The notes under the pieces were generated by a model. The model worked only from the letters and a program-made list of their open reading frames with translations, ran no database searches and had not been told where the DNA came from. Source: an uncultured Planctomycetia bacterium (GTDB lineage Bacteria; Planctomycetota; Phycisphaerae; FEN-1346; JAACEH01). Taken from it: a stretch of DNA of 64,000 nt. Of this stretch, positions 12,147-54,574 are shown one piece after another (position 1 is the stretch's first letter; every line of letters begins with the position of its first letter). The position numbers and the translations under genes were made by a program. The DNA lies in NCBI GenBank assembly GCA_903929765.1, contig CAIYVX010000024.1:1-64000 (forward strand). Reading direction: 5' to 3'.

Positions 12147-13285
12147 ACCCGACCGTCCCGCCAGAATTTGCCACAATAGAGGGGTTGGGCCAGGTGCGGC
12201 CAACTCTGCCGCCACAGCCGCTGGCCATGCCGACGGGCCTGGGCGGCGGAGAATGTCTGGCCTATGCCTGCCCGGCTCAGCCGCACCAGGGCTGCGTCTC
12301 ACCAGCGGTTGCCCGGAGACTGAGCCGGCTCCAACTCCTGACCCTCACGGCGGCGCACCGGGCCGTTCAGGACGGCGGCGGTCTGATCGCCGGTCCCGGC
12401 GCCGGTGTTTTTGTCGGGACGGGGCTGGGTTCGCTGGGGGCCACGGTTGAGTTTCTGGAGGATGTGATTCGTCGTGACGAGGCCAGCCCCATGCCGGCCA
12501 GGTTTATCACGTCCGTTCATAATGCGTCGGCCTCGGCCATCGCCATTGAATTTCAATGCCAGGGCGAAAACCGCACCACGACGCACGATTCGATCTCTTT
12601 CGAGTTGGCGCTCGGGCAGGCCCTGACGGCCTTGAGACTGGGCCGGATTGAACGGGCGGTCGTGGCGGCCGGCGACGAGTTGCATCCCTATCATGTGGCG
12701 GCGATGAATCACTGTCAACCGTGGCGGAAGAAGGCCGAAGCGTTGGCGCCCTTGTCCCCGACGGCGGCGCGGCTTCACGGTTCGTTGCCGGGCGAAGGCG
12801 CGGCGGCGTTTGTCCTGGGACGACCCGGCGGAAACGGTCGGCCGGAGGCTTCCGTTTGTATCCGCGGCCTGGGCCTCGCCCCGCGGCCTGCGGCGGACCT
12901 GGGCGGGATCCGCACGGAAGATGAAGTCGCGTTTCTCCAGAAGGTTCTGCACCCGGCGAACGCTACGCTGGCCGACGTCGATTTGATCCTCCTGGGGGCA
13001 GATGGCGATGCGGCGCTGGATGCCGTGTACGGTCGGGTGATCCAGGCGGTCGGAGCCGCAGCCGGAGGCGACTTGGCCGTGGGCGTCTTCAAGCACCTGT
13101 GCGGCGAATTTGCGACGGCCTCCGCGCTGGGTCTGGCCCTGGCGGGCGACGCGGTGCGCCAGGGCCGCCTGCTGCCGGACATCGCCCTGATCGCGTCCGG
13201 TCGGGCGGATAATCGGATCGATAATGTGCTTACGTACACGATTCACCGCAATGGTTTCCACAGTGCTTGCTGGGTGAGCCGATGA
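12143..13285 (+). CDS. Ketosynthase-like partner lacking the active-site Cys (chain-length-factor type)
   Basis: A 380-residue thiolase-fold protein of the beta-ketoacyl synthase family. The nucleophile-elbow region reads THDSISFELAL, where Ile151 takes the place of Cys. The catalytic-His NAHGTGT region is replaced (LLGADGDA), and the second His motif is degraded to FKHLCGEFATAS. It should not condense by itself; in APE and aromatic polyketide systems such proteins dimerise with the catalytic KS and set chain length. ATG at 12143 overlaps the upstream KS stop (ATGA), supporting 1:1 production. Confidence 0.82.
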   Translation: MNPTVPPEFATIEGLGQVRPTLPPQPLAMPTGLGGGECLAYACPAQPHQGCVSPAVARRLSRLQLLTLTAAHRAVQDGGGLIAGPGAGVFVGTGLGSLGATVEFLEDVIRRDEASPMPARFITSVHNASASAIAIEFQCQGENRTTTHDSISFELALGQALTALRLGRIERAVVAAGDELHPYHVAAMNHCQPWRKKAEALAPLSPTAARLHGSLPGEGAAAFVLGRPGGNGRPEASVCIRGLGLAPRPAADLGGIRTEDEVAFLQKVLHPANATLADVDLILLGADGDAALDAVYGRVIQAVGAAAGGDLAVGVFKHLCGEFATASALGLALAGDAVRQGRLLPDIALIASGRADNRIDNVLTYTIHRNGFHSACWVSR

Positions 13286-14082
13286 CTCGCCACCGCGCCG
13301 CCATTTTGTGTCTGATCCTGGCCTTGGCGGGCATAACCATCTTCGTCGAGGGACCATGGCGCTGGCGGCTCTATGGCCTGGCGAGCGCCGCGTATCTGGT
13401 GGTTCTAACGCTGGGCGTGTCATTGATCGGTCTGGAGTTCTTTGGTCGCGCCGTGTGCCGCGGCCCGGCGGGTAAACGGCGCGTGGCGTTGACCTTCGAC
13501 GACGGCCCGAACCCGACCGTGACGCCACAGGTCCTCAAAGCTCTGCGGCGGCTGGGCGTGCCGGCCACGTTCTTCTGCCTCGGCGAGCGGGTTCTCGATC
13601 ACCCGGACCTGGCTCGCAGCATCGTCGCCCAGGGGCACCTGATGGGCAATCATTCCCACCGCCACCAGTGGTGGCTGAATTTTCGCGGGCGGCGTTTCAT
13701 GCTCCAGGAAATCCGTTCGGCTCAGCAAGCCATCCTTTCGACCACCGGCACGGTCCCCCGCTATTACCGTCCTCCGGCAGGCTTGACGAATCCACAGGTC
13801 GGGCCGGCGGCTCGGGCGCTGGAACTTCAAGTGGTGGGTTGGACGGCCCGCGGGTTCGACCAGTTCACGGCGTCGCCTTCGGCCATTGTTCGGCGGATTG
13901 TCCGCCGCACCACGGACGGCAGCATTATCGTGTTGCACGACTGCGGCCTGCCGCCGGAACGATTGTTGGCCGTCGTTGAGGAGTTGGTGAGCACCGTGCG
14001 GCAATCCGGCCTGGAGTTCGTCAGGCTGGATCAGTTGCTGGAAGATTTGCCTGGGAAGAGCGAGCCGCCCGGTCAGCGCTGA
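13282..14082 (+). CDS. Membrane-anchored NodB-type polysaccharide deacetylase
   Basis: A 266-residue protein: two N-terminal membrane segments (about 5-22 and 30-55), then a NodB deacetylase domain. The metal site is visible as TFDDGPNP (catalytic and metal Asp) and NHSHRHQ (His-x3-His), with YYRPPAG and IIVLHDCG near the end. This family removes N- or O-acetyl groups from sugars in the periplasm. In this cluster it may trim an acetylated glycan or sugar on the lipid product, which is inference. ATGA overlap with the preceding gene. Its 3' end overlaps the convergent ketosynthase-like gene by 10 bp. Confidence 0.85.
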   Translation: MTRHRAAILCLILALAGITIFVEGPWRWRLYGLASAAYLVVLTLGVSLIGLEFFGRAVCRGPAGKRRVALTFDDGPNPTVTPQVLKALRRLGVPATFFCLGERVLDHPDLARSIVAQGHLMGNHSHRHQWWLNFRGRRFMLQEIRSAQQAILSTTGTVPRYYRPPAGLTNPQVGPAARALELQVVGWTARGFDQFTASPSAIVRRIVRRTTDGSIIVLHDCGLPPERLLAVVEELVSTVRQSGLEFVRLDQLLEDLPGKSEPPGQR

Positions 14083-14981
14083 TTTGCTTCCCGGCAGATG
14101 GCCAGGGTTTCGCCTGTTCCCCGCAACCCGGGCAATTCCAAGCGAGCAGCCGCTTCGCCGTCCGCCAAAGTGCGGCAGAGCATTTCTAGAGCACTTAATG
14201 TTTGGATGGACTCACCAAGAACACACTTTGCCCGGCGATACGGCTCGCCGGGACAAAGTGTGGCACCCCCGTGAGAACAGCCAATCGTGAACTGCTCTAG
14301 TGACGACATTTCTCCGGCGCCAGCCGCGCTGCTTTTCACCACGGACACGTTAGCCAGGACGGATCGTTCTGCCGGCGGCGCGGCTTCGAGCAGAAAAGCG
14401 CAAGCATAGCCGGCGACGCGGTCGGTCGCGGCAGCGCCGAGGGCGGCGCGGCGGTACAAGTCAGGCACCGCATCGGCCACCACACAGAGCACAGCCCGGG
14501 CCTCTCGTTGGATCAGCAGGCGAACGGCCTCCTGTAACGGTGAAAGCTCGTCGCCGGGTGGGCACAACAGGCACAGACTCGGGCCGGTCAGTTGGTGACG
14601 TATGGAGATTTCTCCGATGGCGGCGCTCGGCAGGGTGTAGGAGAAGACGGTGGGGCTGGGCCCGGCAGCGGAGTTGGCGCCGGCCAGGAACTCGCAGTCC
14701 GCTGCCAGCGAGCCGTGAGCCGTGCCCAGGCAGAGGGCGGCTCCGGCGGCCTCGGCCGGGGAAAGAGGCTGAACCTGGAGGGCCAGTTCTGCGGCGGCGA
14801 CGGCGTATTGCGAGAGCAGGTCCAGGCGACCGAACCGCTCGAAGGGGGCGGCGCTGAACCACGACCAGCGGAGCGGTCCGTCCGGCGAGCGTTCGCCGGG
14901 CCAGGCCGTCCGCGATTGCGGGTTGGCGAACCCCGTGTCGTCGAGCCGACTCCAGGCCGTCAGGAAGCAGAGATCATTCAT
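14073..14981 (-). CDS. Second ketosynthase-like (CLF-type) protein with an in-frame repeat insertion
   Basis: A 302-residue protein like the short chain-length-factor partners in aryl-polyene clusters (N-terminal ketosynthase-like fold only). The would-be nucleophile region reads GPSLCLLCPPGDELSPL; the Cys residues are out of register with a KS active site, and no catalytic His motifs follow. Residues about 228-266 are encoded by a 115-bp inverted-repeat element (14186-14300), so without it the protein would be about 264 residues, near the usual size. Translation is coupled to the catalytic KS upstream (8-bp overlap). Whether the C-terminal 35 residues are in the ancestral frame is unknown; 115 is not a multiple of three. 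Confidence 0.7.
   Translation of the reverse strand: MNDLCFLTAWSRLDDTGFANPQSRTAWPGERSPDGPLRWSWFSAAPFERFGRLDLLSQYAVAAAELALQVQPLSPAEAAGAALCLGTAHGSLAADCEFLAGANSAAGPSPTVFSYTLPSAAIGEISIRHQLTGPSLCLLCPPGDELSPLQEAVRLLIQREARAVLCVVADAVPDLYRRAALGAAATDRVAGYACAFLLEAAPPAERSVLANVSVVKSSAAGAGEMSSLEQFTIGCSHGGATLCPGEPYRRAKCVLGESIQTLSALEMLCRTLADGEAAARLELPGLRGTGETLAICREANQR
14186..14300. repeat. 115-bp palindromic, MITE-like element inside a gene
   Basis: Terminal inverted repeats CTAGAGCA (14186-14193) and TGCTCTAG (14293-14300) bound the element. The core is a long hairpin: CACACTTTG (14222-14230) pairs with CAAAGTGTG (14254-14262), and CCCGGCGA pairs with TCGCCGGG inside it. Flanking CTCAC/GTGAG also pair. 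The CACACTTTG...CAAAGTGTGGCACCC core recurs at 54408-54457 with a different inner stem. Confidence 0.85.
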
Positions 14982-16137
14982 GGTTTGCCCTGCTCAGGAT
15001 CATGGCCGCATTGATACCGCCAAAGCCGCACTTGATGGTCACGACGTGGTTCACGCCCGGCGCCGGTTGATGCCCGGTCAGGAGGCGAATCGGCTTGGAG
15101 ACGCCGAGGTTCTCGAAACCGAGCGAGGCGGGGAGAACGCCGTGACGCAAGACCTCGGTGCAGAGGATGGCTTCGGCGACGCCGGCGGCCCCGAGGGTGT
15201 GGCCAATGTAGCCCTTCAGCGACGAGACGGGCGGGCTGTCGGCAAAGACGGAGTAAATGGCCAGCGACTCGGTTTCATCGTTGTAAACCGTGCCCGTGCC
15301 GTGAGCGTTAATGTAGCCGATATCCTGCGGCGCCAGGCGAGCCGCGCTCAGGCTCTTCTGGAGAGCCTGGGTCAGGGCCAGTCCGGTTCTGGAGGGTGCG
15401 GTGATATGGGTGGCGTCATTCGTGACGGCCCAGCCTCGGATCGTGGCCAGAGCGGTGGGCCATGGTCCGCGCCGCAGGACAATAGCGGCGGCGCTTTCCC
15501 CGAGGGATAGTCCATCGCGAAGTTTGTCGAACGGGCGACAGGGCCGGGCGCTGAGCGCGGCCAGAGAGGAGAACCCGGCCAGGACAAAGCGGGAGAGAAT
15601 ATCGACGCCAATGACGAGCATGGTCTCGCACGAGCCGCTCGTCAAAAGCCGCGCCGCCTGGGCGATGGCGACCAGACCGGAGGCACAAGCGTTGGAGGTC
15701 GCCAGGACGGGTCCGCCCAGGCCGAGATCGGTGGCGAGGTCGCGGGCCAGGCGGGCCGGGAGGAAGTGCGACCGGGCCGCCGGGCCAGGTGCGACGAGTT
15801 GTCGCTCCAAGTCATCAATGCCGGCCTTGGTTGTGGCCAGGACCAGTCCGGTGCGTGACGCGAGCAAGGGTCCTGCCTGGGCCAGGGCCCGGCGGCCGAC
15901 GCGCCGGGTGAGGGCGTAGGCGGGCGAACAATCTGCGGGCAGGCCGGGCGCGGGCGCGCCACTCCCGCGCAGCCAGGGAATCTCGGCGGCCACATAGGTT
16001 CGCCCATCGCCCTGGGCCAGGGACTTTAAGGGCCGCAGGCCGCAGGCGCCGGACATTATGGCGTTCCAGGTCGCGGCGGGATCATCGCCGAGGGCCGTGA
16101 CCAGGTCGGCAGCGCAGATGGTCCAGTAGTCACCCAT
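14974..16137 (-). CDS. Beta-ketoacyl-ACP synthase, catalytic
   Basis: A 387-residue FabF-type ketosynthase with an intact triad: Cys151 in SNACASGL, His in INAHGTGT, and His in GYIGHTLGAAG. The end CGFGGINAAMIL is canonical. The start is ATG 16137, which shares one base with the stop of the dehydratase before it (TGATG). It is followed by a coupled cysteine-less partner, giving a second KS/CLF-like pair in the cluster. Confidence 0.92.
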   Translation of the reverse strand: MGDYWTICAADLVTALGDDPAATWNAIMSGACGLRPLKSLAQGDGRTYVAAEIPWLRGSGAPAPGLPADCSPAYALTRRVGRRALAQAGPLLASRTGLVLATTKAGIDDLERQLVAPGPAARSHFLPARLARDLATDLGLGGPVLATSNACASGLVAIAQAARLLTSGSCETMLVIGVDILSRFVLAGFSSLAALSARPCRPFDKLRDGLSLGESAAAIVLRRGPWPTALATIRGWAVTNDATHITAPSRTGLALTQALQKSLSAARLAPQDIGYINAHGTGTVYNDETESLAIYSVFADSPPVSSLKGYIGHTLGAAGVAEAILCTEVLRHGVLPASLGFENLGVSKPIRLLTGHQPAPGVNHVVTIKCGFGGINAAMILSRANHE

Positions 16138-16604
16138 CAAGGTCTGGTCCTTGCGGTCGGCGAAACCGCCTGGTCGTTATCCTCACCACTCTGAATGAAC
16201 ACTTTGAACTGTCCCTCCGCCAGAAGCTGACTCCCGGCCTGAACGCGACCGGCGATGATGCAAAAAGGTCCGACCCGGTTGAGCACCTGGACGCACAAGG
16301 TCAGCGGCTGGTCGACCACGGCGGCGGCGACGAAGCTAAAGTTGTCGAGGCCCACCAACATGCCGCGGGCTGGCGGCAGGCGCCGCTGGCGGGCAAGATA
16401 ACCCTGCATGGCGGCCGTGGTTTGGGCCAGACATTCGATGAGCAGGCTTTCGGGCACGGCGCCATCGACAACGCCGTAATCGCCGCTGCAGAAAGTTTTC
16501 ACCGCTTCGGCCCGATCTTCGCCGCAGGCGGTTAAGCGGTCGATCAGAATCATCGGCGGCCGATGCGGAATCAGATCTTGAACAGCAATGTCAATTTCGG
16601 ACAT
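16137..16604 (-). CDS. 3-hydroxyacyl-ACP dehydratase, FabZ/ApeP-like hotdog
   Basis: A 155-residue hotdog-fold dehydratase that removes water from 3-hydroxyacyl-ACP to give the trans-enoyl chain. It begins with the FabZ-type catalytic His in LIPHRPPMILID, and the second half-site is the ESLLIECLAQTTA helix with its acidic residue. Repeated condensation, reduction and dehydration without enoyl reduction would give a conjugated polyene, consistent with the absence of an enoyl reductase in the cluster. It lies 17 nt after the radical SAM gene. Confidence 0.85.
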   Translation of the reverse strand: MSEIDIAVQDLIPHRPPMILIDRLTACGEDRAEAVKTFCSGDYGVVDGAVPESLLIECLAQTTAAMQGYLARQRRLPPARGMLVGLDNFSFVAAAVVDQPLTLCVQVLNRVGPFCIIAGRVQAGSQLLAEGQFKVFIQSGEDNDQAVSPTARTRP

Positions 16605-16621
16605 GGCCTTACCGCCTTATT

Positions 16622-17974
16622 CTAAGAGGCCAGATATTCCCAGCAAGGCCCGACGACACCTTGCCGGCGAAGGAAACTCATGGCCGGGCCGGCTTCAGGC
16701 TGGCGCGAGGGGACGATCCAATTTCTGGCGGCCTGCCGGTGTTCTTGCACGGTTTGCCAGACGCCGTCATAGGTCAAGCCCGGGGCCAGATAAAAGTCAG
16801 GACGGACGAGCGACGCGGCCGGCCAGCCACACTCCAGGCGGTGGGCTTCGTAGATTTTGGTGCCGGGATAGACGCGGATTCCGACGAAGGGACAAATGAC
16901 CACCTGCTTGAGTCGGCGCGTATTGGCCAGAGTTTCGGCCAGCGTTCGCGCATCTTCCCCCGGTCCGCCCAACAGGAGGAAATGGAGTTGGTGGAGGCCG
17001 AGTTCGGTGCACAAATGAGCGACCGCCACGGCTTCGTCGACCGTGAAGCCCTTATTGTATGACGCCAACATGGCCTCGCAGAGGGCGTCGGTTCCGAACT
17101 CCAGATGGGTCAGGCCGCTACGTTGAAGCAGGCGCAGATAGTCCCGGTTCATGTTGGCCGGGGCAAAGTAGCCGCCCCAGGAGACGGTCAGAGAGCGCCG
17201 GCAGATTTCTTCCGCCAGGAGCAGTTCGCGATGTGACGGGGTGTTGAAGGTCGAGTTGGTCATGAAAAAATAGCGAACGCCGTAGCGCGCTTTCAGTTCC
17301 ACCATCTCGTCGACCACCGCCGCCGGGTCGGACCACAGTCTGGCCGGGCCGTCGATCATCTGGTAGGTGCAGTAGCTGCACGCTTGGGGACAGCCGCGAT
17401 TGGTCTGGAGTCCAATCATGCCGGAGGCCTGCCAGTAATGCTGGACAATGGCAGGGTCATGGCGTGACGCACCGGGTGGCGGCCCGCTCGGAGCAGGGAA
17501 GAACTGGTCGCTGGATTTTGTCAGCACGCCGGGAATATGGCTCCATTGCTGCGGATCAAGGTTCCGGGCCATGAGGGCCGCCAGGGGCACCTCGCCCGGC
17601 CCGACGACGGCGGCGTCGGCCTCCAGCGACTTGAGCAGTTCGTGGGGGAAAAGCGACACGCCGGCGCCGCCGAGGACGACCGGTGCCGCCGACAGCCGAC
17701 GAATCGCCGCCATCAGACGCTGATAGTGATGAAAGTAAGATCGCGGCGCGTCGGCATTGACATTGTCGATGTTGCGGAGGGATAAGCCGATGAGGTCGGG
17801 CGCGGTTTCACGGATGACCCGGGGCAAATCGGCTTCGCCCTGAACCAGCGGGTCGAACTGGACGGCCCGGTGTCCGGCCGCTTCAACGGCGGCGGCCAGC
17901 TTGGCCAGGGCAATGGGGTAGACCGGATAGGGTTCGGTCTCGGGGTTGGCGGAGATGAGTAAAATGGTTTTCAA
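16622..17974 (-). CDS. B12-binding-type radical SAM protein
   Basis: A 450-residue protein with an N-terminal cobalamin-binding Rossmann-like domain (about 1-140) and a radical SAM domain. The cluster ligands are Cys195, Cys199 and Cys202 in GCPQACSYC. The B12 part has Asp and Gly of the DxHxxG pattern but not its His (QFDPLVQG), so cobalamin, if bound, may lack the usual lower ligand. Related proteins are named lipid-biosynthesis B12/radical SAM proteins and lie beside fatty-acid genes, including in proposed ladderane loci. Possible chemistry is methylation, cyclisation or C-C bond formation on the acyl chain. The TTG start is preceded by GGGGGA. Confidence 0.85.
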   Translation of the reverse strand: MKTILLISANPETEPYPVYPIALAKLAAAVEAAGHRAVQFDPLVQGEADLPRVIRETAPDLIGLSLRNIDNVNADAPRSYFHHYQRLMAAIRRLSAAPVVLGGAGVSLFPHELLKSLEADAAVVGPGEVPLAALMARNLDPQQWSHIPGVLTKSSDQFFPAPSGPPPGASRHDPAIVQHYWQASGMIGLQTNRGCPQACSYCTYQMIDGPARLWSDPAAVVDEMVELKARYGVRYFFMTNSTFNTPSHRELLLAEEICRRSLTVSWGGYFAPANMNRDYLRLLQRSGLTHLEFGTDALCEAMLASYNKGFTVDEAVAVAHLCTELGLHQLHFLLLGGPGEDARTLAETLANTRRLKQVVICPFVGIRVYPGTKIYEAHRLECGWPAASLVRPDFYLAPGLTYDGVWQTVQEHRQAARNWIVPSRQPEAGPAMSFLRRQGVVGPCWEYLAS

Positions 17975-17975
17975 C

Positions 17976-19037
17976 TCATTCCCCCTCGTGGTCGCCCAGC
18001 CAGCAAAGCGGATCGCTGGCCAGGTGGTCGCCGGTGAGCTGGAAGGCGTTGCCTCGACAGCCGTAACACTCGCCGGTCAGGCGGCAAGTTCCGCAGGGGC
18101 CTTTCAGGTTTTCATAGACGTGGCGGAGATCGTGAACGACGGGGTTCTCCCGGAGGACGTCGGCGAGGCGATCTTTCCTGGTGTTGCCCAGGTTGATTTC
18201 CACCCCAACGCAAGGATAGAGGTCGCCGTTGGCTTTGACGAGGATGCTGTAGAGGTGTCGGCGACAGGCCGCTCCGGCCAGGGGTGGGTGCGGCTGCCAG
18301 TCGTGGCCAAACTCGGCGCGGTCGATTTCGCTGAGCCGGCGGAAGAGAACCCCAAGTTGTTGCCGGGAGACGAGCAGCCCATCATGATCGACCGCCCGGC
18401 CCTGATAGGTCAGGCATTCAAAGTAAGGCTGGAGGCCGCGCGAGCGAGCCCAGCGCCACAAATCCGGGATTTCGGGGAGATTCTGGCGGCAGATGATCGT
18501 CTGCATGCCCAAGCCGTGGTTCGGCCCCGGATAGCCCGCCCGCAGTAGGTGCGCCAACCCGGTTTCAATCCGGGCGAAGGTTCCGGGCAGGCCGGCCAGT
18601 TCATCCTGCACTTGCGGCGACAGAGAATTCCGCTTGATGACGACGGAAACGGCCTCGTCATATAAAAACTGTGCCAGGTCGGCCGTGAGGACAGTGCCGT
18701 TGGTGAACAGTTCGACCCCGGCCCCGAGTTGGCGGATCAGATGCACAAGTTCCCGCAACTGCGGGTAGAGCAACGGTTCGCCGCCGCCCAGGATGACGAC
18801 TTTCTTGGCGCCCAGCGACAAGGCCTGAACGACGACATCCTCAATCTCCGCCAAGCTCATCTCGTCCTGGGCCTGGTGGCCGGCGCGGCTGTAGCAGTAA
18901 AGGCACCGGAGGTTGCACAGATGAGTCATTTCCAGTTCGATGGACAGCAGGCCGTGCCGCCGGACAGCGGCACTGATTTCCTGAGCGTCGAATTCCAGGC
19001 CGGCGATGGGCGGCGGCGCGAACGGAGGGCCGCTCAT
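17976..19037 (-). CDS. Radical SAM/SPASM-domain protein
   Basis: A 353-residue radical SAM enzyme. The [4Fe-4S] ligands are Cys41, Cys45 and Cys48 in HLCNLRCLYC, followed by the GGGEPLLYP motif. The C-terminal SPASM region has seven or more Cys (ACRRH, LYPCVG, GPCGTCRLTGECYGC, DPLC) able to hold auxiliary clusters. SPASM enzymes usually modify peptides, but some act on other substrates; no precursor peptide was found nearby. ATG 19037 overlaps the acyltransferase stop (ATGA), and the next radical SAM gene starts 1 nt after its stop, so the pair is made together. Confidence 0.85.
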   Translation of the reverse strand: MSGPPFAPPPIAGLEFDAQEISAAVRRHGLLSIELEMTHLCNLRCLYCYSRAGHQAQDEMSLAEIEDVVVQALSLGAKKVVILGGGEPLLYPQLRELVHLIRQLGAGVELFTNGTVLTADLAQFLYDEAVSVVIKRNSLSPQVQDELAGLPGTFARIETGLAHLLRAGYPGPNHGLGMQTIICRQNLPEIPDLWRWARSRGLQPYFECLTYQGRAVDHDGLLVSRQQLGVLFRRLSEIDRAEFGHDWQPHPPLAGAACRRHLYSILVKANGDLYPCVGVEINLGNTRKDRLADVLRENPVVHDLRHVYENLKGPCGTCRLTGECYGCRGNAFQLTGDHLASDPLCWLGDHEGE

Positions 19038-20011
19038 GGAGGGCCTTCTTTCCGAGCGGCGTCGGCCCAGAAGTCGTAGAAGTTGTGCCATTGCAAAGGA
19101 TACGCCCGCACGACTTGCTCCAATTGCGTCGCAAAGTCCTGAGTCCATTGCTGCACCAGGGGGCCGCGATCCTCGTGGCCGGCGAAAGAGAGTTGCCGTG
19201 GCGGACAGGCGAGCAGACGATAGCGATAGGTTCCTTCGCGCAGGGCGAAGGCATGAATCAGCGGGGCGCCGCTGATGGCGGCCACGATATAAGGCCCGGT
19301 GGGCAAGCGCACGGCGGCATTGAGGAATTGGCAATAGACGCCATTGGGTCCCAGGCAGCGATCACCGTGCATGGCTACAATTTCGCCGCGGCGCAGGGCG
19401 GCCATGATGGCGATGCTACTGTCCGGGCCGCCGTCGGCACTGATGACGGAGAACTGTCGGCCCTGGAAGGCCCGGTCGAACAGTTGGCGAAGGCGCCGCC
19501 GTTCGCCCTCGTACGCGACGATGTTCACGGGCACGCGATGCTTGAAGATGATGTGCGAGGCGGCTTCCCAGTTGCCGATGTGAGCCGAAACGAGCACCAA
19601 CCCCCGTTTCTGGCTCAGGGCGGCGACGAGATGTTCCTCGCCCTCGAACTGAAAGTGGAATCCGCGTCCCTGGCGACCGATGATCGCCAGCCGATCCAGC
19701 AGCATCTGGCCAAAACAGAAAAAATGGCGGTAAGCGTCCCAGAGTCGCCTCAGGCGTGAGCGGCTCCAGTAGCCGACCCGCTGACGCCAGAGGGCGGAGG
19801 CCTTTACCGCCTTGGGGGCGGCAAAAAGAAAGTAAAAGGCCACGGGAATCAGAAGGGCGTAGGCACAGCGCAGCCCGAAAAGCCGGACGACGGTAATGAA
19901 GATCCAGTTGCCGACGAGGCCTCCGCGCGTACGACCGTTCCAGGCGGCTTCGGTGGGGGAAGCCGTTCCATTCGTGGGCGGGGCGGAGTCAGTGTCCCTC
20001 TGGGTTCGCAT
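19034..20011 (-). CDS. LpxL/HtrB-type lysophospholipid acyltransferase
   Basis: About 325 residues, one N-terminal membrane segment (FITVVRLFGLRCAYALL region) and an LpxL/HtrB-like acyltransferase domain. The catalytic HxxxxE motif is visible as HIGNWE, and the MHGDRCLG region follows. This family moves acyl groups from ACP to a lipid acceptor at the inner membrane; aryl-polyene clusters contain such a gene, probably for loading the polyene onto a membrane lipid. The start is uncertain: ATG 20011 overlaps the ACP gene by 23 bp, and ATG 20050 is also in frame. Confidence 0.82.
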   Translation of the reverse strand: MRTQRDTDSAPPTNGTASPTEAAWNGRTRGGLVGNWIFITVVRLFGLRCAYALLIPVAFYFLFAAPKAVKASALWRQRVGYWSRSRLRRLWDAYRHFFCFGQMLLDRLAIIGRQGRGFHFQFEGEEHLVAALSQKRGLVLVSAHIGNWEAASHIIFKHRVPVNIVAYEGERRRLRQLFDRAFQGRQFSVISADGGPDSSIAIMAALRRGEIVAMHGDRCLGPNGVYCQFLNAAVRLPTGPYIVAAISGAPLIHAFALREGTYRYRLLACPPRQLSFAGHEDRGPLVQQWTQDFATQLEQVVRAYPLQWHNFYDFWADAARKEGPP

Positions 20012-20264
20012 CCGACCCTGGCGCCGGAGGGCTTCGTGTAACGCAGTCATAGAGTTCCTGAAGTGTGCGTATGGAACGGGCCTGTTCCTCATCGATCCGG
20101 ACCGCGAACTCCCGCTCGGCCGCAACCACCATGTCGACGCCGTCGAGGCTGTCCAGGCCCAGGTCTTCCTTCAAGCGCGCCTCGGGCGCCAGCAGCGCCG
20201 GAGCGACCTCGAAATCCCGGATCATGATCGCGTTGACTTTATCGATGATCTGCTGATCTGCCAT
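19989..20264 (-). CDS. Acyl carrier protein (cluster ACP 2)
   Basis: A 91-residue ACP with phosphopantetheine attachment at Ser39 in DLGLDSLDGVDM, the classic DSL motif. It differs clearly from ACP 1 (DSI), so the cluster has two carriers, possibly for starter or loading versus chain elongation, as in APE clusters. ATG 20264 preceded by GGCGGATGG. The Pro-rich C-terminal tail overlaps the acyltransferase start. Confidence 0.92.
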   Translation of the reverse strand: MADQQIIDKVNAIMIRDFEVAPALLAPEARLKEDLGLDSLDGVDMVVAAEREFAVRIDEEQARSIRTLQELYDCVTRSPPAPGSDANPEGH

Positions 20265-20391
20265 ATTCCATCCGCCTGGCCTCATCCGTTCCGGTGCGCG
20301 TACGTCAAGACTCTGGATCAGAGCAGGCATACTATATCAGATGGTCGTGGTATTTCAATCGCCAACCGCCGGACGTGCGATCCGGGGTGAT
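20265..20391. other. 127-bp gap inside the long minus-strand operon
   Basis: The largest gap between coupled minus-strand cluster genes, between fabG-like and ACP 2. No terminator seen. It could hold an internal promoter; I cannot identify one with confidence. Confidence 0.4.
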
Positions 20392-21129
20392 TTAGTAGAC
20401 GCCGCCGTTAACGCCGATGATCTGGCCGGTGATGTAGGAGGCCAGAGGTTGGCAGAGGAAGACGACCAGGGCGGCCACCTCTTCGGGTCGTCCGGCCCGG
20501 CCCATGGGGACGGTCTGGCTGATCAGATCAGGGGGCAAGTCCTGAATCATTTCCGTTTCGATGAAACCGGGGGCGACGGCGTTGACGGTGATGTTGCGTT
20601 TGGCCATTTCCTTGGCCAGGGCCTTAGTCGCCCCGATCAGGCCGGCTTTGGCGGCGGAGTAGTTGACCTGGCCGCCAACGCCGGACTGCCCGGAGGTGGA
20701 GGTGATATTGATGATGCGACCGCGGCGCTGAAGAGCCATCTGTTTCACGGCCAGACGGGTCACGGCATAGAACCCGGTCAGAGAAACGTCGAGGACGCCC
20801 TGCCAGTCCTCGGGCTTCATCCAGACGAAGAGCATGTCTTTGTGCCGCCCGGCGTTGTTGACCAGAACGTCCAACCGGCCGAAGCGGCGAATGGCTTCGT
20901 CTACGCTGCGCTCGGCGGCCGCGAGGTCGGTGACGTCAAAGGGCAGAAGCTCGCCCGAACCGCCAACGGCCTGAACCTGGCCGAGGGTTTCTTCGGCGGC
21001 TTCGCGGTTGGAGAGGTAGTTAATCAGGACGTGGCGTCCGGAGGCGGCCAGGGCAATGGCGATGGCGCGGCCAATTCCTCTGCCGGCCCCGGTCACGAGG
21101 GCCACTTCCTTAGTATTCGCGGAGTCCAT
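20392..21129 (-). CDS. 3-ketoacyl-ACP reductase, FabG-like
   Basis: A 245-residue short-chain dehydrogenase reducing 3-ketoacyl-ACP with NADPH. It has the nucleotide motif [10 protein letters not shown] near the N terminus, NNAG, the catalytic Ser in ITSTSG and the YSAAK catalytic Tyr/Lys, and ends with INGG-type VNGGVY. It is the only ketoreductase in the cluster and so must serve all condensing enzymes. Twenty-nine bp separate it from the upstream KS. Confidence 0.92.
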
Positions 21130-21158
21130 GGTTTACCCCTTGCGCGACAAAAGCCGCA

Positions 21159-22379
21159 TCAGCCACCGGCCAGGACAAGCGAAGCATTCACGCCGCCGAA
21201 AGCGAAATTGCTGGAAAGGGCCAGACTGGCCCGACAGGCCAGGGGCTTCAGGAGATGAGCCAGCCCGGCACACTGCGGATCGACCTGCTCCAGATTAAGC
21301 GTGGGTTGCAACACGCCGTCCTGCATCATCATCAGACAGAGGATGGCTTCCATCGCGCCGCAGGCGCCCTGCAAGTGTCCGGTGTACCCTTTCGTGGCGC
21401 TGACGGGAACGGCGTCGCCGACCAGGGCGCGGATGGCCGCAGCTTCAGCGGCATCGCCGAGAGTCGTGCCGGTGGCATGGGCGTTTATATAGTGCAAATC
21501 GCGGGGTTGAATCCCGGCCGAGACCAGGGCCTGCCTCATGCAGGCTTCGATCAGATCGGCGCCAGGCTGGGTCATGTGGCTGGAATCGCAATTGGTGGCA
21601 TAGCCCAGCACCTCGCCGTGAATCCTGGCCCCGCGGCGCCGGGCGCGGTCCATTTCCTCAAGGATCAGGACGGCGGCCCCTTCGCCCAGCACCACGCCAT
21701 CGCGCTGGAGGTCAAACGGCCGGGGCGTGCTGGTGGGGGAGTGGTTGTAGCGGCGAGAGGCGGCGCCCAGGACATCAAAGACGGCGACACTGGTGGGTTG
21801 GACTTCGTCGGCGCCGCCACAAATGATGACATCTCCAAGTCCATGCTGAATCATCTGGCAGGCCAGGCCCACGGCCTGGGTCGACGAGGCACAGGCGCTG
21901 GACAGGCCGAGCAGTTGGCCGCGCGTGCCCAGCAGGTTGGCCACGTTGGCGGAGACGGTATGGCCCATGACCTTCATGAACATGGTGCCTTCGAGGCCAT
22001 TGATGCCGTGCTGGGCGTGAAACTGGCCGAAGAAATGATCGAGGACTTCGACCGAACCCATCGTGGAACCCATGATCACGCCGGTGTTCGGCGAGGTCAG
22101 TGTTTCAGGGTCTAGGGCGCCGTCGTCGACGGCCTGGCGGGCGGCCAGGGCGGCCATCAGAGAAAGACGGCCCATGGTCCGCCGACAGGTCCGGGGAATC
22201 TGGTGGGGATCGAACGGGCTGACCAGGCCCGCGACGTGGCTCTTGAGGTCGCCGACCGCCGCCCATTCCGGCATGGCCCGGATGCCTGAGACCCCGCCGG
22301 ACAGCGCCGCCGCGACGGCCTGACGGCTGTTGCCGATGGGTGAGAGCATCCCCATGCCCGTGATGGCGACCCGCCTCAT
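21159..22379 (-). CDS. Beta-ketoacyl-ACP synthase, catalytic
   Basis: A 406-residue FabF-type ketosynthase with Cys163 in SSACASST, His in NAHATGT, His in KGYTGHLQGACG, and NFAFGGVNASLV at the end. This is the third catalytic KS in the cluster. It sits between fabG-like and the desaturase-like gene, an arrangement like the separate ApeR-type KS in aryl-polyene clusters. Its ATG overlaps the previous stop (ATGA). Confidence 0.92.
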   Translation of the reverse strand: MRRVAITGMGMLSPIGNSRQAVAAALSGGVSGIRAMPEWAAVGDLKSHVAGLVSPFDPHQIPRTCRRTMGRLSLMAALAARQAVDDGALDPETLTSPNTGVIMGSTMGSVEVLDHFFGQFHAQHGINGLEGTMFMKVMGHTVSANVANLLGTRGQLLGLSSACASSTQAVGLACQMIQHGLGDVIICGGADEVQPTSVAVFDVLGAASRRYNHSPTSTPRPFDLQRDGVVLGEGAAVLILEEMDRARRRGARIHGEVLGYATNCDSSHMTQPGADLIEACMRQALVSAGIQPRDLHYINAHATGTTLGDAAEAAAIRALVGDAVPVSATKGYTGHLQGACGAMEAILCLMMMQDGVLQPTLNLEQVDPQCAGLAHLLKPLACRASLALSSNFAFGGVNASLVLAGG

Positions 22380-23866
22380 GCTCTCTCCTTCACGATCTCG
22401 GTTGTCAGCTCGCCGGTTCCCAGGACCGCCTCGCTGGCGGCGATACCGCTGATCAGCGAGCCCAGGAGTCCCGGCGCAATCACGCTTTGACCCGCCAGAA
22501 AAAGGTTCCCGATCCGCGTTCTAGTCGAAAGCCTGGTCTCCAGCAGAGACTTGAGCGACTTCTTCAACCCAAGTGCGCTGCCCGTCGGCGAGCCGGTATA
22601 GTCACGGAAGGTCAGCGGGGTAAAAACGTCGACGATCCGCGCTTCGCTTCCCGCCTCCGGCCAACGCCCGCAGACGGCCGTGAAGAGCTTTTCGGCGAGA
22701 TCCTCCTTCAGGCGATAGTAATCCGCCGGACGGTCTCCGGAGCGACTATTCCACCAGGGGGCAAACTCCTCACAGGCGCAGCCGGACAGGGCCACGGCAC
22801 TGTATGATCCGCCCGACCCTTCAGGCGTTCCGCTACAATAGACTACCTCAAGCCTCTGGTTGCTGTAAACCACTTTCTGCCGATAGACCGCGTCCGTGCT
22901 GGCGCCGGCATACAGGACGACATCCTGCCGCGCCAGAGGGAAGTTTTGCGTCTGCCAGGCCAGGGCGATGCCGAAAATGCCGAGGGTTTCTTCGGCTTCC
23001 ATGATTCTCTGGCGGTAGCCCGGTCGCAGCGTACCCGGCGGACAGAGCGCCGGCAACAGCTTGGGGTGGCCGGTGAAGACAACAACATCAGCGGTAATTA
23101 TTTCGCCGTCGGCCAGCCGCACGCCGGTGACTTGGTTCGCCTGACATTCGAGGCCCACGACCTGGCACGAGCAACGACAGACGCCGCCGGCCTCGTGCAG
23201 CGCGGCCAGGAAGGCCGCCACCAGACTGGTTTCGGACTCGTCAATCCGCCAGGAGCTTTGCAGGACGGAGTCGGTCACCAGAAAGTGGACGAACAGCGGA
23301 CATTCATCAGCCGGGATTCCGTAGAGCAGATTCGGGGCGGCCAGAATCCGTCTCAGGGGTTCGCAACCGGTCAATCGACCGAGATAGGCCGCCAGGGACA
23401 AGGCGGCGTTTTCCCGGCTCAGATACGGGTCCGCCGAGAGCTTGTAGAGCGGGAAACGCGCTGTGGTTGTCGCCATATCGGCGAAGTACTGGTCGATAGC
23501 CGGCCGCTGGGCGGGAAAATGTTCCAGGAGGCTTTCGCGAAAGCGTTCGTGGTGGGCGGGCATGGCGAAAGTGAAATCCGGAAAACAGAATTCGCAATAG
23601 CCGGCGGGATCCATCGGGACGGCGCGGATTTTCGGCCAGACGCCCAGATATTCCAGGTACTGGCGCAAGGCCTGTCCCGGCCCAAGAGAACCGACGCAAT
23701 GGACCCCGGAGGAGAAATAATGGCCCTGTTGCTGGAATCTCGTCAGCAAGCCCCCGGGGCTTGGGGACTGTTCGAGTACGGTGGTTTGGCAGCCGTGGCG
23801 GGCCAGGACAATGGCCGCAGTCAGGCCGCTGATCCCGGAGCCGATGATGATCGCGGTCTTTCTCAT
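22376..23866 (-). CDS. Phytoene-desaturase/retinol-saturase-like FAD oxidoreductase
   Basis: A 496-residue flavoprotein. The FAD-binding motif IIGSGISGLTAA is at the very start, followed by the ARHGCQTTVLEQ beta-strand/Glu, and the GPTGSALG-like C-terminal FAD-contact region plus LFLAGQSVIAPGL close the fold. Relatives are CrtI desaturases, carotenoid isomerases and retinol 13,14-saturase, which act on conjugated polyenes. Desaturation, saturation or cis-trans isomerisation of the polyene chain is plausible. Similar proteins appear in proposed ladderane gene sets. ATGA overlap on both sides. Confidence 0.85.
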   Translation of the reverse strand: MRKTAIIIGSGISGLTAAIVLARHGCQTTVLEQSPSPGGLLTRFQQQGHYFSSGVHCVGSLGPGQALRQYLEYLGVWPKIRAVPMDPAGYCEFCFPDFTFAMPAHHERFRESLLEHFPAQRPAIDQYFADMATTTARFPLYKLSADPYLSRENAALSLAAYLGRLTGCEPLRRILAAPNLLYGIPADECPLFVHFLVTDSVLQSSWRIDESETSLVAAFLAALHEAGGVCRCSCQVVGLECQANQVTGVRLADGEIITADVVVFTGHPKLLPALCPPGTLRPGYRQRIMEAEETLGIFGIALAWQTQNFPLARQDVVLYAGASTDAVYRQKVVYSNQRLEVVYCSGTPEGSGGSYSAVALSGCACEEFAPWWNSRSGDRPADYYRLKEDLAEKLFTAVCGRWPEAGSEARIVDVFTPLTFRDYTGSPTGSALGLKKSLKSLLETRLSTRTRIGNLFLAGQSVIAPGLLGSLISGIAASEAVLGTGELTTEIVKERA

Positions 23867-54407: not shown

Positions 54408-54574
54408 GAACACACTTTGGTCCCGACTTCGTCGGGTCTTCAAAGTGTGGCACCCGGAGGAAGTCCAAACGCACGGCGGGCAAGCCCCGCCGTGGCACAA
54501 GCTCAGTCAGACACACAGGGCCTCAACCCCTCACCCGGCCCTGAAGGGCCACCCTCTCCCAAGGGAGAGGGGTT
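54408..54574. repeat. Three palindromic elements after the hydrolase gene
   Basis: CACACTTTG/CAAAGTGTG with inner CCCGAC/GTCGGG (54408-54457), CACGGCGGG/CCCGCCGTG (54471-54498), and a CTCTCCC/GGGAGAG element with GGCCCTGAAGGGCC (54524-54574). Confidence 0.88.

Follow-up and report, generated by a model that had tools for sequence, protein, structure and literature searches.

A palindrome inside a ketosynthase-like gene

The window, i.e., the whole stretch of DNA analysed here (64,000 nt), belongs to contig CAIYVX010000024.1 of assembly GCA_903929765.1, from an uncultured Planctomycetia bacterium. The gene under study is the last of a minus-strand operon and overlaps the convergent gene at 13267-14082; a Pfam match bears out its reading as ketosynthase-like in a preliminary description of the sequence (Table 1). 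Ketosynthases, including the KS at 14974-16140, are encoded at 14974-23866 together with a SPASM radical SAM protein and a CrtD-like desaturase, beside a B12-binding radical SAM protein (16622-17974, minus strand) that scored 389.6 against the cut-off of 360 for TIGR04072 (rSAM_ladder_B12, lipid biosynthesis). Judged by these predicted functions, the region may be a planctomycete gene cluster for ladderane-type lipids; anammox clusters are treated in PMC2649909.

The 115-bp palindrome reported within the gene (14186-14300) is exactly as described, starting with CTAGAGCA and ending with TGCTCTAG. Its DNA folds with -31.6 kcal/mol, compared with -13.4 ± 2.6 kcal/mol for shuffled sequences (z -7.1; 0 of 200 shuffles), and the RNA of the transcribed (minus) strand over the same interval with -59.4 kcal/mol (z -7.65). 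The terminal inverted repeat is present but longer than first read, comprising about 29 imperfect bases (TAGAGCA.TT.A.G.TTGG.TG..CTCAC). Likewise, the palindrome is in the place given for it but the element proper is not 115 bp long: it spans 109 bp (14189-14297) between two TA dinucleotides, or 113 bp measured TA to TA, and is short and non-coding. The second copy of the core named in the preliminary description was recovered as well: the 9-bp arms of the hairpin at 14222-14262 are those of the hairpin at 54411-54449, which is their sole further match in the window.

Table 1 Features of the interrupted gene, the inserted element and the second hairpin in the window.
Feature	Position	Strand	Evidence
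Interrupted KS/CLF-like gene, 302 aa; insert = residues 229-265	14073..14981	-	Pfam Ketoacyl-synt_2 3.6e-7; homologues; model
TA, left copy of target duplication	14187..14188	.	T and A invariant at 24/24 ends (12 copies); outside bases variable
Left arm, imperfect IS630-type terminal inverted repeat	14189..14215	+	pairs with right arm in fold; repeat ends IS630 copies in G017, G003, G002
REP-like core hairpin, type B, CACACTTTG-CCCGGCGATACGGCTCGCCGGGA-CAAAGTGTG	14222..14262	+	100 perfect genomic arm copies, 0 for reversed control; flanks RAYT at L229
GCACCC, one side of hairpin	14263..14268	+	conserved in all aligned copies
Right arm, IS630-type terminal inverted repeat	14271..14297	-	fold; repeat search; copy alignment
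TA, right copy of target duplication	14298..14299	.	comparison of ends (24/24)
Stand-alone REP-like hairpin, type A, without MITE arms	54411..54449	+	match to core

The insertion preserves the reading frame

The TA duplication sits within the CTAG/CTAG of the first reading. With the duplication hidden there, the net insertion is 109 bp plus 2 bp of TA, i.e., 111 bp or 37 codons (EQFTIGCSHGGATLCPGEPYRRAKCVLGESIQTLSAL), and not the "about 38 residues" first estimated. Two outcomes had been envisaged for the gene, a target duplication that restored the frame or a C-terminal part now in a different frame; the first is right, and the second does not apply. Only one of the six frames of this copy is free of stops, and that frame is the one used by the gene; the 127-bp form of the element (see below) would add 125 bp. 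The in-frame length together with the single open frame could be luck. GC3 of the insert is 0.49, compared with 0.78 upstream and 0.68 downstream within the same gene.

Comparison with orthologues, which could have exposed the segment as conserved protein sequence, found it as such in none of the aligned homologues. Those from the class, from Bacteroidota and from the wider phylum all lack the 37 residues, the Bacteroidota orthologues being comparable over the N-terminal part only. The 15 full-length homologues are 245-275 residues long (median 265), and the protein of the window has 302 residues with the insert and 265 without it. Our search for a close orthologue yielded none, and the best homologue is 43% identical over residues 10-204. 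When the last 37 residues were aligned, 1 of 13 homologues matched (CRTLADGE/CRMLMDGE; p 0.007 before correction), and neither of two family HMM profiles extended into this tail; the pairwise match is suggestive, and the tests gave no statistical proof of homology. An AlphaFold model (24 sequences, pTM 0.80) gave pLDDT below 50 for residues 220-262 and placed a helix (264-273) and, further on, a strand (291-297) after them, consistent with an unstructured loop inserted between two structured parts.

The outer part belongs to a family of IS630-type MITEs

The outer inverted repeat has the form TAGAGCA(G/T)TTCACGATTGG. The genome search for the terminal repeat suggested in the preliminary description returned 27 near-matches in the organism's own genome and more in relatives, against practically none for a reversed control. 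A 127-bp form (TA to TA) has at least 22 matches at E ≤ 1e-25 in this genome, a lower bound drawn from 40 scored candidates that did not include the window copy. Mean column identity among 16 aligned copies was 88%, and at the 24 ends compared the bases outside the invariant T and A vary, with a pyrimidine preference at -1. The genome thus has two dozen or more IS630-type MITEs, the window element among them. We considered CTAG as a 4-bp target duplication and rejected it, because the outer base varies among copies whereas TA does not. At one locus (L214 291-546, C40) two tandem MITEs have one TA in common.

None of the 22 other copies listed lies clearly inside a gene; two (L266 and L277, the latter partial) may cover the initial codons of an ORF. 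Many relatives stand immediately after a stop codon or in the space separating convergent genes, and the window copy too is at the 3' end of an operon, given that its gene is the last of the operon and converges on 13267-14082. At five loci (L264, L265 and L271, each at 1501-1503; L262 and L270, each at the right end) the terminal TAG of the MITE is the stop codon of the adjacent gene, so that a stop codon hit at its TA is mended by the element that inserted there; the ORFs so ended have at least 500 codons each (L264, L265, L271), 125 codons (L262) and 469 codons (L270).

In three related genomes (G017, G003 and G002), the MITE terminal repeat lies directly behind the C-terminus of IS630-family transposase genes, and the MITE ends match these IS630 ends, observed at the transposase-gene side only, over about 20 bases. 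The transposase with the MITE-type repeat is multi-copy in G017, with copies cut by contig ends; G003 and G002 have it in decayed form (L078 in G003, scoring 128 bits for NF033545 at a cut-off of 100; L095 in G002), and a search for the other end of the decayed G003 and G002 copies did not find it. The window's own genome (assembly 96% complete, 116 contigs) yielded no IS630 element with MITE ends; its single DDE_3 match, an IS630-type copy close to a contig end (L083 1380-2483, G000:C23), ends in TAGAGATTGCCG, unlike the MITEs, and was rejected as the source. Because the one IS630 of this genome has different ends, the source transposase has been lost, is hidden in an assembly gap or was never resident there.

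The inner part is a REP-like hairpin

The arms of the core (CACACTTTG-N-CAAAGTGTG) recur mostly without MITE arms among their perfect genomic copies (Table 1). At least three types of hairpin occur: type A (GGCCCCGGC..GCCGGGGCTT), as at 54411; type B (CCCGGCGA..CCGCCGGGA), as in the window element; and type C (ACACCTTG arms), found in the 127-bp MITE and alone. Pairing in the stems is nearly always preserved, with some two-sided changes. All 11 neighbouring B/C pairs are inverted and outward, 0-17 bp apart, and are REPIN-like. At one locus (L229) two outward hairpin copies enclose a gene for a REP-associated tyrosine transposase (RAYT; NF047646, 99.3 bits against 80). A second RAYT (NF047646, 186 bits) has two further hairpins (L230 200-390, G000:C22) at a distance of about 1.1 kb. 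High copy number of a 20-45 bp, mostly extragenic palindrome, inverted pairing and a flanked RAYT are features of REPs and REPINs that the core hairpin displays, and it is in all likelihood REP-like. We use the term "REP-like" because neither GTAG nor CGTC, the tags known from REPs in the literature (PMC3733652), was found at the end of the hairpin, which has GGGTGC as one flank and TTC as the opposite one.

Arms and core disperse as one unit, as judged from aligned copies. The copy at C98:10327 has the arm, the arm-core junction and the core in common with the window copy. In the 127-bp form the junction is particular to that form and constant, with a segment (TTTGCCGGCCTTCC) similar to a B/C-pair spacer. 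At another locus (L219 302-539, G000:C105:108446-109165), MITE arms surround a complete inverted type-A hairpin pair in 238 bp. In G002 and G003, members of a different family within this order, hairpins of another sequence (GCGGYGGGTC/GACCCRCCGC), often paired, are enclosed by the same arms. This hairpin is present in 80 copies in G002 and 130 in G003, and in 16-254 copies in four others of that family (perfect copies: G007, 254; G003, 130; G005, 113), and has 0 copies in the window's genome. In G003 it often forms inverted pairs about 65 bp apart, and two copies enclose a RAYT (NF047646, 92.1 bits).

The element is therefore a MITE with a REP core. Since a different RAYT-linked hairpin lies within the same arms in two families, these MITE ends carry the hairpin proper to the host lineage in at least two cases. 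The core may have entered by transposition of a REP into a MITE or by formation of a MITE around a REP pair. Insertion sequences target REPs, according to a work cited in PMC3116915 (its reference 42), and pneumococcal repeats insert into each other (PMC3049150).

Origin of the insertion and alternatives

The central proposal of the preliminary description, a mobile palindromic insertion read through in frame, is upheld by the TA-ended dispersed copies, the retained frame and the absence of the segment from homologues. We consider it very probable that an IS630-type MITE inserted with TA duplication and retention of the frame. An IS630-family transposase would have acted in trans on both outer repeats of this non-autonomous MITE, whose interior is a REP-like hairpin, placing it at a CTAG site and duplicating TA. 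The protein, if made and working as we infer, would tolerate the 37 inserted residues as a disordered loop that follows the KS-like part and precedes the C-terminal helix and strand, because this length variant adds 111 bp that are stop-free in the gene's frame. The hairpin core would be dispersed by its own system, with RAYT as the presumed catalyst, and the armless copy at 54411 would follow from this.

That the segment is ordinary, diverged protein-coding sequence of the KS/CLF-like gene family finds some support in its open frame; its absence from all aligned homologues and a codon composition unlike the rest of the gene speak against this, and the similar DNA dispersed in intergenic regions elsewhere in effect refutes it, leaving it a negligible probability. 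RAYT might instead have inserted the palindrome as a REP, the IS630-like ends being a chance resemblance or a later addition. The core is indeed a RAYT-linked hairpin, but the element ends at TA in a sequence shared with IS630 ends, near-matches to its terminal repeat far exceed the reversed control, and dozens of copies combine arms and core at the same junctions, which in effect refutes this origin and makes it very improbable.

Other readings accept the insertion and question what it means for the gene. Were the gene already dispensable or its C-terminus unimportant, the in-frame length would be an accident of neutral insertion into a decaying gene; a random insertion keeps the frame about once in three, and the C-terminal tail is missed by the family HMMs. 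We regard this as unlikely, given that the ORF is intact for 302 codons with coding-type GC3 upstream, that homologues end at a matching length, that the model gives the tail a helix and a strand, and that none of the other listed copies is clearly within a gene. It is likewise improbable that the palindrome serves mainly at the RNA level, with a hairpin close to the operon's 3' end curbing decay, or antisense transcription out of the convergent gene, and its coding role being incidental. The stability of the transcribed strand, the overlap of this last gene of the operon with a convergent one, and the many relatives behind stops or between convergent genes, as for REPs (PMC3733652), speak for such a role; ribosomes, however, must unfold the hairpin inside the ORF, and selection against harmful insertions would also favour placement at 3' ends.

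Comparison with known palindromic elements

For the outer part of this MITE, the nearest match is RUP of Streptococcus pneumoniae (PMC2229807, PMC3049150), similarly about 107 bp long, with a TA target, ends like those of a resident IS630, many copies and no coding capacity. Compared by description, RUP has stops in all frames and no reported REP core, whereas the window element has one open frame and a REP core. For the in-frame placement, the nearest match is the Rickettsia palindromic elements (RPE), of 105-146 bp, which lie inside genes without breaking the frame and whose added residues are tolerated (PMC2229807, PMC3733652). Both are palindromes sitting in frame within a coding gene, but RPE have no tie to IS630, CGTC ends (PMC3733652) and many intragenic copies, compared with one clear intragenic case here. 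The window element is not filed as an RPE, because neither its ends nor those of its hairpin have CGTC. The core is closest to REPIN/RAYT systems (PMC2817692, PMC3116915, PMC3733652), which resemble it in having about 100 short copies, inverted outward pairs and a flanked RAYT; it differs in that its hairpin has no GTAG or CGTC tag and is carried inside an IS630-type MITE. A further comparison is with the Correia/NEMIS elements. Their terminal repeats we take to differ from those of the window element. They are TA-ended MITEs of 107-155 bp, whose 107-bp form is fused in frame to genes, with no REP core reported (PMC2229807).

In-frame palindromic insertions are thus already known from the Rickettsia RPE; of the recurring architecture, a MITE around a RAYT-linked REP, we found no description in the open-access literature, to which our search was confined. 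A mechanistic meaning of this nesting is conceivable but somewhat doubtful. With similar reserve, we suggest that across the order IS630-type MITE ends may repeatedly take up the lineage's abundant RAYT-driven REP pair, yielding a two-transposase composite (DDE ends, HUH core). The REP hairpin of such a composite might assist the MITE, for instance by keeping its ends together on single-stranded DNA.

The window element offers a clean case outside Rickettsia of mobile DNA adding residues to a biosynthetic (lipid-pathway) protein. It is also a member of a nested mini-transposon family that combines two layers, each with a transposase unrelated to that of the other. The occurrence, in two bacterial families, of the same ends around different REP cores raises the question of whether RAYT hairpins aid the spread of IS630 MITEs.
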